This document shows positions 23,381 through 26,659 of a stretch of 33,384 nt of DNA, in pieces. The position numbers and the translations under genes were made by a program. This DNA comes from a virus, in IMG/VR virus record IMGVR_UViG_3300046011_006106, positions 1-33,384 of that record. One strand, written 5' to 3'. Numbering within the stretch: the stretch's first letter is position 1; each line of letters begins with the position of its first letter. Under the pieces are notes generated by a model. It had not been told where the DNA came from and did no database searches. It saw nothing but the letters and a program-made list of their open reading frames with translations.

Positions 23381-23632
23381 ATGGACTTCAAAAAAGACAT
23401 GGACGTTGTTTGTATCCGTAAGCAACCTTGGAGGATTTTAACTCCTTCCGATCCACCACCAGAAATAAAATACGGAGAAGTTGTAACTATTTCGAATCTT
23501 ATTCGTAAAGATATACTATTCCTAGAGTTTCAACAATATCCAATGAGTCTTTACGGAGCTGGGAACTTTGTTCCACTCGACTTATTCGTTGGCGAATTTA
23601 ATTTAGAAAAAGAGGAGGTACTAGTTGGCTAG
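23381..23632 (+). CDS. Hypothetical SH3-like protein
   Basis: 83 residues. It has the small-barrel pattern 'MDVVCIRKQPWRI...KYGEVVTISNLI...LEFQQYP...FVPLDLFV' that is frequent in phage early proteins: entry strand, 'GExVTI', and a closing 'xFxPLxxF'. No functional assignment. It overlaps the next gene, which starts with TTG, by 8 bp. Confidence 0.55.
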   Translation: MDFKKDMDVVCIRKQPWRILTPSDPPPEIKYGEVVTISNLIRKDILFLEFQQYPMSLYGAGNFVPLDLFVGEFNLEKEEVLVG

Positions 23633-23837
23633 ATATGCAGTAAAAACTTACTTCGGTAAGAGCAAATACAAATATGTTTACATTAATGTTCAAGGGACTA
23701 CTCAATGGTTTGTTGTTAGGATGCCTAAATTCAAATTTGAGAAGTGGTGTAGAAGCGAAACTGAAGCTGCTAGGCTAGTTGATGTTAAGTTGGTAATGAA
23801 TGGCTTTGAGCCAGTGAATGTGTTGAAGAGGGTATAA
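23625..23837 (+). CDS. Small basic protein, possibly AP2-like
   Basis: 70 residues from a TTG start inside the previous gene. Three strands (YKYVYINVQGTTQWFVVRM) and a helix with TEAARLVDVKLVMNGFEPVN resemble the small AP2 DNA-binding fold (strands, then 'xxEAAxxxDxxxxxxGxxxVN'). The resemblance is modest. Its stop codon is the TAA inside the TATAAC of the first attC-like site, so the cassette array begins exactly at its end. Confidence 0.5.
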   Translation: MARYAVKTYFGKSKYKYVYINVQGTTQWFVVRMPKFKFEKWCRSETEAARLVDVKLVMNGFEPVNVLKRV

Positions 23838-23926
23838 CGTTTTGCGTGTTTATGTCAGGCGGGCATAGCACGAACTTAATTATTAACCGCAAGCTGTCCG
23901 CCCGCTTGCATAAACACGCTGTTATA
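23833..23926 (+). repeat. attC-like site 1
   Basis: TATAAC-GTTTT-GCGTGTTTATG ... CATAAACACGC-T-GTTATA. Inner 11-bp perfect arms at 23844-23854 and 23909-23919, then GCGGGC/GCCCGC nearer the loop. 94 bp. It overlaps the stop of the gene before it. Confidence 0.75.
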
Positions 23927-23947
23927 GGCTGATAAATTTTACGGATT

Positions 23948-24160
23948 ATGGAAACGAAATATTATTTTTTACTGATTGGAATAGCAATAGGTTGGCTTAC
24001 CAAAGTGCCATTCTTAATCAAATGGTATAATGAACTTAAAAGATACAAAGAAGGCAAGGTGAAATTATACAACCGATTGATAAATGAAGTAAATAAACTA
24101 CCAAAAGATGAACAAAGCAAATTTTGGATTACTACTGCTTATTTCAGAGACGCAGAGTAG
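23948..24160 (+). CDS. Cassette ORF 1, membrane protein
   Basis: 70 residues. One N-terminal membrane helix (YYFLLIGIAIGWLTKVPFLI) and a basic helical tail (WYNELKRYKEGKVKLYNRLI). Not recognised. It starts 22 bp after the right end of site 1 and ends 16 bp before site 2, so the whole unit is one gene plus one recombination site. Confidence 0.6.
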   Translation: METKYYFLLIGIAIGWLTKVPFLIKWYNELKRYKEGKVKLYNRLINEVNKLPKDEQSKFWITTAYFRDAE

Positions 24161-24175
24161 TAAAATTTATTTTCC

Positions 24176-24250
24176 TATAACGGTTTGCGGCTAATGGCTG
24201 GCGGCAATAGGCGGTTAGTATGTAGCCGCTTGACATTAGGTGCTGTTATG
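24176..24250 (+). repeat. attC-like site 2
   Basis: TATAAC-GGTTT-GCGGCTAATGGC ... GCCGCTTGACATTAGGTGC-T-GTTATG. 75 bp, the shortest class. The right core ends GTTATG instead of GTTATA, a single change in the outer box. Confidence 0.75.
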
Positions 24251-24312
24251 TTGGTGCGTTGGCTTGTGTGTGAGGCAGTTTTATTTTATTAATTTTTAAA
24301 AAAGCGAAGGCA

Positions 24313-24672
24313 ATGGAAATAATTGAAAACATTACTTTATATAAATGTGGTTTTTGCAAAAAGAAAATGCAACGTAAACACGCAATGATTAAGCACGAAG
24401 AGCATTGTAGTAAAAATCCAAAAAATTGGAGTGCTTGTAGTGGTTGCGTTTTTATGAAGGAAGGAGAAACCGAAGTGTATTATCAAAATAATTATAGCGG
24501 AGAAATGGAAGAAAGCTCTAAGCGTTGTAAAACTTTCCATTGCGAAAAATTTAATAAAGACTTATATCCTTACAAAGTTGTAAAGAAGGGCTTATTAGGA
24601 AAATACCCTGAAAGTTTTGAAGGAATGGAGCAAATGCCTACTACTTGCGAAGGGTGGAATTATACTAAGTAA
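24313..24672 (+). CDS. Cassette ORF 2, Cys-rich zinc-finger protein
   Basis: 119 residues. Residues 11-33 form a C2H2-like finger: YKCGFCKKKMQRKHAMIKHE then EHC (Cys-x-x-Cys, His, His-x-x-x-x-Cys). Further cysteines in CSGCVF, RCKTFHCEKF and TTCEGW suggest a second zinc site. Proteins with 'YKCxFC...KHAxxKHExxC' are frequent in Bacteroidetes cassettes and phages as far as I recall; the role is unknown. Spacing to both attC-like sites is normal. Confidence 0.65.
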   Translation: MEIIENITLYKCGFCKKKMQRKHAMIKHEEHCSKNPKNWSACSGCVFMKEGETEVYYQNNYSGEMEESSKRCKTFHCEKFNKDLYPYKVVKKGLLGKYPESFEGMEQMPTTCEGWNYTK

Positions 24673-24712
24673 CGGTGCGTAGGCTTTTAAAAATTAATAA
24701 AATAAAATTGAA

Positions 24713-24786
24713 CATAACGTTTTGCAGCTAATAAATCGGGCGTGGAAACACAGTAGATGTCCGCCTGTTTATTAGCTGCTGTTATA
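24713..24786 (+). repeat. attC-like site 3
   Basis: CATAAC-GTTTT-GCAGCTAATAAA ... TTTATTAGCTGC-T-GTTATA: a perfect 12-bp inner stem, 74 bp in all. Nearest to a textbook attC size. Confidence 0.8.
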
Positions 24787-24840
24787 GGTAGTGCCAAAAG
24801 TAAAGACTAAAAGAATATTAATAATTAAAAAATAGAAATA

Positions 24841-25182
24841 ATGAACTTAAAAGAATTTGTAAAATTTACATTTAAAAAATACGAAAAAAACGGGTATTGT
24901 TTTAGACCTAGAATAGTTTGTAATGATGGGTTTTCAATGAGTGTACAAGGCAGTAACGCATTATATTGTAGACCGAGAATTACACAAGATTGGTATGATA
25001 AAATGGAAATAGGTTATCCATCCGCAGAAGAAATTGATATAATAGAATTTGCCGAGGATATTACAAAACCAACTGATACCGTTTATGGTTATGTGCCATG
25101 TGAACTTATTGAAAAAGTTATTTTAAAACACGGTGGTATTAACTCGGTTGAAACATTTAAAGTGTCTGAGGATATTAAATAG
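24841..25182 (+). CDS. Cassette ORF 3
   Basis: 113 residues. Features: SMSVQGSNALYCRPRITQDW, MEIGYPSAEE, and DTVYGYVPCELIEKVILKHG. This combination ('S-x-Q-x-S-x-x-x-Y-C-x-P-R', 'VYGYVPC', 'KHGGI') is seen in a small hypothetical family of phages and mobile elements; function unknown. The sequence is soluble with three Cys. A phage-type gene in a cassette is consistent with cassettes sampling phage genes. Confidence 0.65.
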   Translation: MNLKEFVKFTFKKYEKNGYCFRPRIVCNDGFSMSVQGSNALYCRPRITQDWYDKMEIGYPSAEEIDIIEFAEDITKPTDTVYGYVPCELIEKVILKHGGINSVETFKVSEDIK

Positions 25183-25190
25183 GCATTACC

Positions 25191-25320
25191 TATAACGGTT
25201 TGCGTGTATATGTCAGGTGGTGATTAGAATCACTACACTTGATTATACCACAAAAGATAATTAAAAGAACAAATGTTGAATAAACCACTACACCACCACT
25301 TGCATATACACGCTGTTATA
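25191..25320 (+). repeat. attC-like site 4
   Basis: TATAAC-GGTTT-GCGTGTATATG ... CATATACACGC-T-GTTATA: perfect 11-bp stem, then GGTGGTG/CACCACC. 130 bp; the long centre is extra loop sequence. Its stem resembles that of site 1 (GCGTGTTTATG). Confidence 0.75.
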
Positions 25321-25354
25321 AGTTGGTGCGGTTTTAATAACTAAAATTTTAAAT

Positions 25355-25546
25355 ATGAAGAAATACAAATCAAAACTCAATGGTAAGGTAGCGATAATCA
25401 TAAGTGATAAAGCTGCTGGAATGTGTAACAAGACATTAGGCATAACGATGGTTGTTTACAAATATGAAGGTGACACTTATGATTATCCTTTCATTATGGA
25501 ACACAGAGAGTTTTATCAGAAGCATTCTGAAATAACGGAATCTTAG
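25355..25546 (+). CDS. Cassette ORF 4
   Basis: 63 residues, a small soluble beta-type protein (SKLNGKVAIIISDKAAGMCN, GITMVVYKYEGDTYDYPFIM) with a helical tail. Not recognised. 34 bp after site 4 and 8 bp before site 5. Confidence 0.55.
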   Translation: MKKYKSKLNGKVAIIISDKAAGMCNKTLGITMVVYKYEGDTYDYPFIMEHREFYQKHSEITES

Positions 25547-25554
25547 CACTTGCT

Positions 25555-25683
25555 TATAACGTTTACAGCTATGTTTAGGCTGGGAATTAAGATTAGAAAA
25601 CTATCAAAATAAGATAAATTATGAAAAAGGATAAAACTTCAATATGGGCAGTAAAACCCAGCTTAAATATAGCTGGTGTTATA
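25555..25683 (+). repeat. attC-like site 5, overlapping an ORF start
   Basis: Ends GCTTATAAC (25552-25560) and GTTATAAGC (25678-25686) pair over 9 bp. Inner CAGCTAT/ATAGCTG and GCTGGG/CCCAGC pair as well. The 3' half is inside the frame that starts at 25621, so the loop contains that gene's start codon. Confidence 0.7.
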
Positions 25684-25950
25684 AGCCGTTTTGAGCGTGA
25701 GGAATTTGAATCACAATATTTGCAAAAGCCGAGTGCTGAAATGATTGCAAAACAAGAACGAGCATACAATGCCTTACTTGCTTATGAAAAGAACTGCCTT
25801 AAATACGAGGCGAAGTACATTGACCCACGAATGGCGAAAATACCAAAAGGTGAAATGATGGGAGATTTTGCTATGAGATACGGAACTACAATTAAAGAAA
25901 TGAAAGACCAATGGCAGCATGTTGAAAGTGCGTTGGCTAATGGCTTATAA
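25621..25950 (+). CDS. Cassette ORF 5, start supplied by an attC loop
   Basis: 109 residues. The first 22 residues or so are coded by attC-like site 5 (KPSLNIAGVIS corresponds to its right arm). From about residue 24 the protein is charged and helical (FEREEFESQYLQKPSAEMIA, AYNALLAYEKNCLKYEAKYI), with no known domain. In the cassette proper the first in-frame ATG is Met41. The stop TAA is taken from site 6. Either a true fusion or a shorter protein started at Met41 or a TTG. Confidence 0.5.
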   Translation: MKKDKTSIWAVKPSLNIAGVISRFEREEFESQYLQKPSAEMIAKQERAYNALLAYEKNCLKYEAKYIDPRMAKIPKGEMMGDFAMRYGTTIKEMKDQWQHVESALANGL

Positions 25951-26075
25951 CGTTTTGCAGATAGGCGATGTGGCGGATTTTGAAAACGAACCGTTCGGAA
26001 AAACCGAACACTTGATTTGAAAAACAGAACTTAATATTAACCGAGAACCCGCCATATTGCCTATGTGCTGTTATA
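25946..26075 (+). repeat. attC-like site 6
   Basis: TATAAC-GTTTT-GCAGATAGGCGATGTGGCGG ... CCGCCATATTGCCTATGTGC-T-GTTATA. The stem is imperfect (bulges expected in attC). 130 bp with a long centre. It contributes the stop codon of ORF 5. Confidence 0.75.
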
Positions 26076-26101
26076 GGTAGGTTTTCTTAAACAAAAGTAA
26101 A

Positions 26102-26359
26102 ATGAAACAAGAAATAACATTAGAACAATACCTTAGATTAGGTGGTAAATTAGACAAAGTGAATTGGAGTGACGCCTACTGTAATTATGGAGACTGTAAC
26201 CGAGGTGCAAAAGTAGTGTCTTACGAAGACAAAGGCGAAAAGGGTGGACACGACACACCATTATTTCATTTTGCTTTTGATAATGGCAGAACTCATAGAT
26301 ACGCTATTTGTTGGATAAAGATGAAAGTTGATTTTGTGCTTTCTGAAACTTACCTATAA
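26102..26359 (+). CDS. Cassette ORF 6
   Basis: 85 residues: LEQYLRLGGKLDKVNWSDAY, then CNYGDCNRGAKV (two Cys), FHFAFDNGRTHRYAICWIKM. A soluble, mixed fold, not recognised. Unlike the other cassettes it has no complete downstream site; the stop TAA is the one in the half-site TATAAC at 26355-26360, three bases before the next phage gene's ATG. Confidence 0.55.
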   Translation: MKQEITLEQYLRLGGKLDKVNWSDAYCNYGDCNRGAKVVSYEDKGEKGGHDTPLFHFAFDNGRTHRYAICWIKMKVDFVLSETYL

Positions 26360-26360
26360 C
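26355..26360 (+). repeat. attC half-site closing the array
   Basis: CCTATAAC matches the left ends of sites 2 and 4, but no partner arm follows. The cassette was cut here, or the insertion used this sequence as a simple core site. Confidence 0.45.
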
Positions 26361-26362
26361 TA

Positions 26363-26659
26363 ATGGCTAACAGTACTTCAAAAAATTACACCAACAAAAT
26401 CAATACTTACATGGAATATTCAGAACTTCATAATGTTATAAAACAACATCTTGGGAAGCGACTTCAAAATAACGAACTTACAAATAACGACATAAAAAGT
26501 CTTATTGATATGCTTGGAGGATTCCTTAATCTTAAAACATACGCTGAGTATTCGCAACTAAAAGGAATTAGTTATAATGGTGTTCTTGCAAGATTAAAAT
26601 CAGGATCCATACAGCACTATGAATTATTTGGAGTAAAATTTATAATTGACAATGACTAG
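26363..26659 (+). CDS. Hypothetical protein with HTH-like C-terminus
   Basis: 98 residues. The C-terminal 45 residues (LKTYAEYSQLKGISYNGVLA and RLKSGSIQHYELFGVKFIID) fit a recognition-helix unit used by small phage DNA-binding proteins ('KTYAEYAxxxGVSYNGVxxRIKSGKI...GVKFVI'). The N-terminal half is a separate helical domain. Possibly a small regulator or DNA-binding adaptor. It begins three bases after the cassette array. Confidence 0.6.
   Translation: MANSTSKNYTNKINTYMEYSELHNVIKQHLGKRLQNNELTNNDIKSLIDMLGGFLNLKTYAEYSQLKGISYNGVLARLKSGSIQHYELFGVKFIIDND

Follow-up and report, generated by a model that had tools for sequence, protein, structure and literature searches.

Introduction

Integrons gather single-gene cassettes into arrays that extend from an attI site beside the integrase gene, with crossover at G^TT in attC hairpins whose shape is conserved; each of these features has a counterpart in the array described here, which lies in a tailed-phage genome (IMG/VR record IMGVR_UViG_3300046011_006106; this whole stretch of 33,384 bases is referred to as the window). 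The likeness to integrons has limits, however: the recombinase associated with arrays of this kind is without the IntI domain, the recombinase gene precedes the attI, the hairpins have a 5x1 internal loop, and the phage genes run antisense. The IntI-specific additional domain is regarded as defining and has been reported to be necessary (Messier & Roy 2001, quoted in PMC9668308), and in Bacteroidetes a complete integron has been reported in Salinibacter only (PMC9024848).

Phage integron arrays without an integrase are already known. As far as the accessible text of Qi et al. 2023 (PMC9892861) goes, these clusters of attC sites lacking an integrase (CALINs) resemble our array in occurring in virulent phages and in carrying methyltransferase cargo, but in that text the count is only 17 CALINs among 10,705 phages, the main text names no Flavobacterium phage, and no cognate integrase family, phage attI ends or isolate-level gain and loss are reported. 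The XerA (archaeal XerA-type, NF040815) recombinases provide the family model closest to the host recombinase considered below and have a similar predicted fold; unlike them, the host protein adds an N-terminal domain of ~90 amino acids (aa) (weakly HARP/XPB-like) and IntI-like QNQ and SPxD motifs, and its gene adjoins an attI and an array. Finally, the PeSL mobile regulatory cassettes of T4-type phages combine an intergenic hairpin with a regulatory leader and are associated with phage gene shuffling by homologous recombination; they are not known to have a cognate recombinase or receiving site. In a search of the open literature (preprints and subscription papers lay outside it), we found no domain-less integrase with attI and arrays, no phage attI ends and no inversion.

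We consider it very probable that the window carries an integron-like array of six cassettes, recombined at TAA^C by a likely host-supplied relative of IntI that lacks the IntI-specific domain.

Hairpin sites of the window

The record, from a tailed phage, has terminase and portal genes. The array is inserted between two tightly packed phage genes and consists of six plus-strand open reading frames (ORFs), six complete sites (S1 to S6, from the left) and one half-site. An earlier note, made from the sequence alone, had proposed an integron-type gene cassette array at this position. The array itself is confirmed; ~0.2 such sites are expected by chance per window. All window sites follow the pattern NATAACG-KTTT-[10-12 bp stem] ... 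[stem]-(1-2 nt)-GTTATR. The asymmetric spacers are as the note described them (left, 5 nucleotides [nt] in 6/6; right, 1 nt in five sites and 2 nt in S5), and its TATAAC/GTTATA ends hold for most sites, the exceptions being S2, which ends in GTTATG, and S3, which begins with CATAAC. Stem sequences vary from site to site while the 5-nt and 1-nt spacers stay constant. A strict scanner accepted 5/6 window sites, compared with a mean of 0.17 and a maximum of 2 in whole-window Markov shuffles, and a covariance model (R1) built from 35 sequences of relatives, three of the six window sites included, scored the six sites at 26 to 61 bits. As in attC, the sites fold with the R''/R' boxes and the L arms paired, and the structure is kept while the sequence varies.

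Among phage sites selected by their ends only (ATAACGKTTTGC...GCTGTTATR), 94/106 had 7 to 9 of the next 9 positions paired, compared with ~9% in an arm-swapped control; the long stem is thus not a selection effect, because pairing extends past the bases of the pattern itself. Scanning with the end-only pattern returned at least 119 stretches in viral contigs and 108 in ~85,000 prokaryote genomes; the prokaryote carriers belonged chiefly to Bacteroidota, and Atribacterota, Dehalococcoidia and archaea were also represented. The 5/1 spacing was common to 130/180 viral and 77/92 genomic sites. The analysis throughout used simple ORF calling, pattern-biased sampling and fragmentary contigs, and related sites were counted separately. 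Near-identical sites (GATAACGTTTTGCGGATAAAAGAAGTTGCCGAAG...) were found in Atribacterota, Dehalococcoidia, Neomarinimicrobiota and archaeal metagenome-assembled genomes (MAGs) (loci L208, L219, L223, L226, L233, L240, L282 and L309), which may reflect either cross-phylum cassette traffic or binning errors.

Cassette mobility in isolated phages

A BLAST search with the window array gave matches in isolated Flavobacterium phages, described as virulent (PMC7077304). They contain 8 to 14 sites and an attI-like end, together with multiple methyltransferase genes, several of which are cassette-borne. Comparison of related phages, which the earlier note had suggested as a check, revealed single cassettes gained, lost and reordered at the predicted junction. 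A 439-base cassette is present in sniff9-1 and not in sniff9-2 (left junction, ...TTTTACATAAC|G; empty site, ...TTTTACATAACGTTAAAG), a 342-base attI-proximal cassette is present in snork6-1 and not in snork6-2 (empty site, ...TTGCTTATAACTACAATATT), and a methyltransferase cassette occupies an internal position in hattifnatt9-1 and the attI side in sniff9-2. The junctions of gained, lost or moved cassettes always fall at the same base in TAAC, with ~5 to 11 nt shared, even though the hairpins differ. Cassettes of one gene and one site are therefore gained and lost singly at G^TT (sniff9-1/9-2, snork6-1/6-2, hattifnatt/sniff), as in integrons.

These comparisons bear directly on two alternatives. 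The sites could simply be intrinsic terminators, or structured spacers, separating genes whose order is fixed, and four terminator-like matches do occur in the region, located inside S4 to S6, where 1.3 are expected. However, related phages differ by exact cassettes and in their order, arrays share attI-like ends, and the 5x1 asymmetry is conserved in bacteria and phages. The isolate comparisons contradict this reading, which the earlier note had named among its possible refutations; we rejected it and regard it as hardly credible. Alternatively, homologous recombination, with no site-specific enzyme involved, might shuffle mobile intergenic regulatory modules of the PeSL type (a terminator hairpin plus a leader or promoter). 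Leaders are indeed modular, and pairs of site and leader recur with different genes; six unrelated genes share a single 45-nt leader, GTTATGTGCTGGGCGGTTTATCAGCACTAAATTTAATTTGAAAACG, downstream of the site in each case (L103, L104, L108, L130, L138 and L156). Nevertheless, such modules appear very unlikely to account for the array. PeSL-like exchange would occur in shared flanks, whereas the junctions observed here share only ~5 to 11 nt around TAAC and coincide to the base between differing hairpins; no T-run was found behind the site ends; and bacterial arrays with a recombinase and an attI would be left unexplained.

Returning to the cassette array, we asked which gene belongs to which site. 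The earlier note had taken a cassette to be a gene plus the site that follows it. If so, loci sharing a site should also share the upstream gene, but no such pair was found, whereas 216 pairs shared the site only and 34 shared the site and the downstream gene; the unit is therefore the site plus the gene to its right. Moreover, the same gene is followed in each of three phages by a different site, which assigns a site to its right-hand gene, and in the isolate comparisons the two always move together. Among phage genes downstream of a site, 89/133 have their stop in ATAAC, compared with 170/894 control stops (19%). The array is an integron-type cassette array with site-leader-gene as its unit and with its crossover at TAA^C on the plus strand, equal to G^TTA on the minus strand. 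Read on the minus strand, the arrangement is that of a standard integron: attI with its G^TT comes first, and every cassette behind it closes with an attC-like site.

Window cassettes 2 and 3 have relatives that precede different neighbors, joined at identical junctions. A relative of cassette 2 (78% aa identity; L411 to L413) has an attI-like end in place of S3, with junction AAAATTGAACATAAC, and has a different site on its left, which indicates that sites also change over longer times. The cassette 3 gene (97% aa identity; L416) has a similar site, another left flank and another following site.

attI-like ends

The right-hand end of the array, taken by the earlier note for a half-site, is by its sequence an attI-like receiving end (TATAACTAATGGCTAACA; minus strand, TGTTAGCCATTAG^TTATA; positions 26355 to 26372, minus strand). 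The terminal half-site TATAAC (26355 to 26360) lies within it, and it overlaps the start of the next phage gene. Phage arrays terminate in TAACTAYYN... (reverse complement, CGCCTATACAGTAG^TTA and variants) at more than 20 loci, and the reverse complement of this phage-end motif is the motif found behind the stop codon of the host recombinase. There, (C)CTATAA..NAG^TTA was recognized 70 to 175 nt past the stop in 17/20 loci by eye and with a loose motif; the strict attI-like motif was present in 13/20 host loci, with 0.016 expected per locus. Host loci thus have an attI adjoining the integrase gene, as integrons do.

A host recombinase and the adjacent arrays

The earlier note proposed a search for IntI as the matching integrase. 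Among 49 site-bearing genomes, a true IntI scored above the family cut-off in only 3, while 48 had some weaker recombinase match, the best of which was mostly of a domain-less type. Against TIGR02249, this tyrosine recombinase aligned only over ~1 to 179 and 238 to 315 and scored 206 to 225 bits (cut-off, 265); the IntI-specific insertion is absent from the alignment, which places the protein outside the IntI family. A search for IntI as such would find nothing, because the matching enzyme lacks the IntI-specific domain; what we found instead was a relative of IntI. The recombinase scored 203 to 234 bits against NF040815, around the cut-off of 220. It is ~280 to 550 aa long, usually has the 90-aa N-terminal domain, contains a SAM-like core-binding domain with S.SYQNQ..NA, and has invariant catalytic residues R, H, R, H and Y. 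Its structure model resembles XerA and IntI4, the best solved relatives. The N-terminal domain had weak matches to SMARCAL1 HARP (E 0.28), XPB (E 0.46) and Pfam HARP (E 0.01, one protein), suggesting a HARP-like fold. The gene adjoins housekeeping genes and looks sedentary.

Sites and recombinase genes are arranged consistently. In our first set, 22/26 sites lay 3' of the recombinase in convergent orientation (0.25 expected). In an unselected Bacteroidota sample, all 24/24 same-contig sites within 40 kb were convergent and on the recombinase 3' side, and 9/9 contigs with an array and a recombinase had identical geometry; sites occurred in 12/14 genomes that matched the recombinase strongly and in 3/14 that did not (p=0.0009). 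MAG contigs often end at the recombinase 3' side (L316, L325, L327, L328, L334 and L338), as if repeated sites break assemblies.

These data also bear on whether the array is an ordinary CALIN, in which canonical attC cassettes have become detached from a classical integron and the true IntI of some host recombines them. By definition (at least two attC sites, no nearby integrase), the window qualifies as a CALIN if its sites count as attC. Phage CALINs have been published, and IntI1 recombined 5/6 tested phage attC sites, one of them (attC2) from Polaribacter phage P12002L, where attC sites of divergent direction were described (PMC9892861). In the same phage, two relatives of our sites that R1 matches weakly (16 bits) border a DNA methylase gene (L435:37200-39120). 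On the other hand, IntI is absent from 46/49 site-bearing genomes, and the surroundings of the three true IntI genes yielded none of our sites, which led us to reject canonical attC of a nearby IntI. A simple canonical attC search there also found none, so these three loci provide no positive control. In addition, R1 gave a class 1 attC (attC-aadA7) only 9 bits (E 0.5), and the arrays adjoin the domain-less recombinase with a matching attI. We therefore consider an ordinary CALIN unlikely. In layout, our sites carry 5x1 spacers; canonical attC sites have ~4 to 6 nt on both sides plus extrahelical bases.

No integrase was visible to the earlier note in the phage, and our search of the 33-kb record for a recombinase relative likewise found none; the four complete Flavobacterium phages searched also encode none. 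Four of 49 virus records searched encode a shorter form near the array. In these (L407 to L410, the records of L156, L130, L113 and L122), the short recombinase stands beside the array, and they are possibly complete phage integrons.

Gene orientation relative to the sites

Flanking genes run in opposite senses in the two settings: relative to the site, phages gave 128 ++ and 2 -- cases and bacterial genomes 58 -- and 8 ++ (p about 1e-38, with counts that are non-independent). Strand bias suggests that several of the forward genomic cases are phage-like. With attI-to-attC polarity as the reference, cassette genes are codirectional with attC in bacterial arrays and inverted in phages, the window included. 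Because gene orientation is opposite, phage and host cassettes are distinct pools. We would guess that transcription of phage arrays proceeds in the attI direction within a phage operon, every gene having a leader of its own.

Discussion

We propose that a tyrosine recombinase would join cassettes by cutting a single core, at TAA^C on the plus strand and G^TTA on the minus strand, both in the attC-like site, once folded, and in the attI-like end (26355 to 26372), with a folded single strand as the presumptive substrate and the domain-less recombinase as the candidate cutter. The phage record encodes no such enzyme, so the host, probably a Bacteroidota bacterium, is the most likely supplier; the host chromosome would encode an IntI relative that lacks the IntI domain, with an attI and an array behind its gene. 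Supply by the host in trans is the simplest interpretation. Removal of 23838 to 26359 would restore a tight gene order, ...GTATAA^CTAATGG..., in which the stop codon is followed by CTA and then the next start; the array would be excisable to the base. The cassettes would supply accessory genes, which in relatives are often DNA methyltransferases.

Several points weigh against this proposal. The action of the recombinase on the sites is deduced from sequence. R1 sites were chosen for pairing, so covariation in R1 is partly built in. In the tree, the recombinases and IntI grouped against XerC/XerD with support of 100/100, but the tree contains few IntI, Xer is its sole outgroup, and the bootstrap had not settled. 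Three recombinase-negative genomes carry one site each. Flavobacterium covae (G008) has its array, and G006 a lone site, on the side of the nearest recombinase opposite to the usual one, and Dehalococcoidia and Atribacterota loci are mixed in geometry. Phage cassette genes are oriented opposite to those of host arrays. Lastly, for lack of a close relative of the window, no empty version of its own site was observed; terminase relatives (best, 46% identity) and the right-flank gene yielded no such comparison. As to the G008 chromosome itself (L366), its array lies on the same strand as the nearest recombinase copy, on the 5' side, and the genome has several copies.

More broadly, we think it reasonably probable, if less so than the proposal for the window itself, that a second integron lineage is built on this domain-less sister family of IntI (in bacteria usually with the extra N-terminal domain), is widespread in Bacteroidota, and serves tailed phages of these bacteria, which would have an attI and cassettes of their own, rely on the host's enzyme in trans and maintain a distinct pool, with genes inverted relative to the site, for exchanging counter-restriction methyltransferases; the family would also qualify as a candidate pre-IntI stage in integron evolution. 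Bacteroidetes are regarded as almost free of integrons because detection depends on the IntI domain. Should these arrays be integrons that use another integrase, a gene-capture system spanning the phylum has gone unnoticed, and an IntI sister group without the hallmark domain would be available for studying integron origin. For phages, it would name a mechanism for fast accessory gene exchange. Poor plating of Flavobacterium phages carrying arrays on strain LMO6 correlated with a missing particular methyltransferase (PMC7077304). Phage isolates and their hosts exist, so the hypothesis is directly testable.

Composition of the array

All features in this section are on the plus strand, with cassette boundaries placed at TAA^C by analogy with the junctions in relatives. 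The left flanking phage gene (70 aa; 23625 to 23837) ends inside the first site, as the earlier note had observed: its stop, TAA at 23835 to 23837, reads directly as the TAA of the first TATAAC. S1 (TATAAC-GTTTT-GCGTGTTTATG...CATAAACACGC-T-GTTATA; 23833 to 23926; R1, 61 bits) opens putative cassette 1 (23838 to 24180), which comprises S1, a leader and an ORF of 70 aa (23948 to 24160). S2 (24176 to 24250; 49.9 bits), a leader and an ORF for a Cys-rich protein of 119 aa (24313 to 24672) would form cassette 2 (24181 to 24717); S3 (24713 to 24786; 49.1 bits), a leader and an ORF of 113 aa (24841 to 25182) would form cassette 3 (24718 to 25195); and S4 (25191 to 25320; 50.6 bits) and an ORF of 63 aa (25355 to 25546) would form cassette 4 (25196 to 25559). 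S5 (25555 to 25683; 25.9 bits) contains in its loop the ATG (25621) of the 109-aa ORF (25621 to 25950) with which it would make up cassette 5 (25560 to 25950). Predicted cassette 6 (25951 to 26359) comprises S6 (25946 to 26075; 53.5 bits; 86% identity to a site of Flavobacterium phage hattifnatt9-1), a leader and an ORF of 85 aa (26102 to 26359), the TAA stop of which is within the terminal TATAAC. The right flanking phage gene (98 aa; 26363 to 26659) adjoins the half-site as noted earlier, at a distance of two bases rather than three. Searches of Pfam, PHROGs and PADLOC with the six cassette proteins gave weak matches only.

At 23835 to 23837, 25948 to 25950 and 26357 to 26359, the TAA within the core TATAAC doubles as the stop codon of the gene before it, so that the crossover TAA^C falls directly behind the stop; many phage loci are alike in this. 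Among long phage-locus sites (at least 118 nt), a loop ATG opens into the downstream gene in 19/32, compared with 2/32 on the other strand and 3/127 among short sites; such sites encode the protein N terminus (window S5 at 25555 to 25683, L097, L100, L110, L122 and L135). The cassette 2 gene is flanked by a 26-nt inverted repeat (96%; 24276 to 24301 and 24685 to 24710) inside its leader and trailer, and the repeat is retained in the relative in L411.

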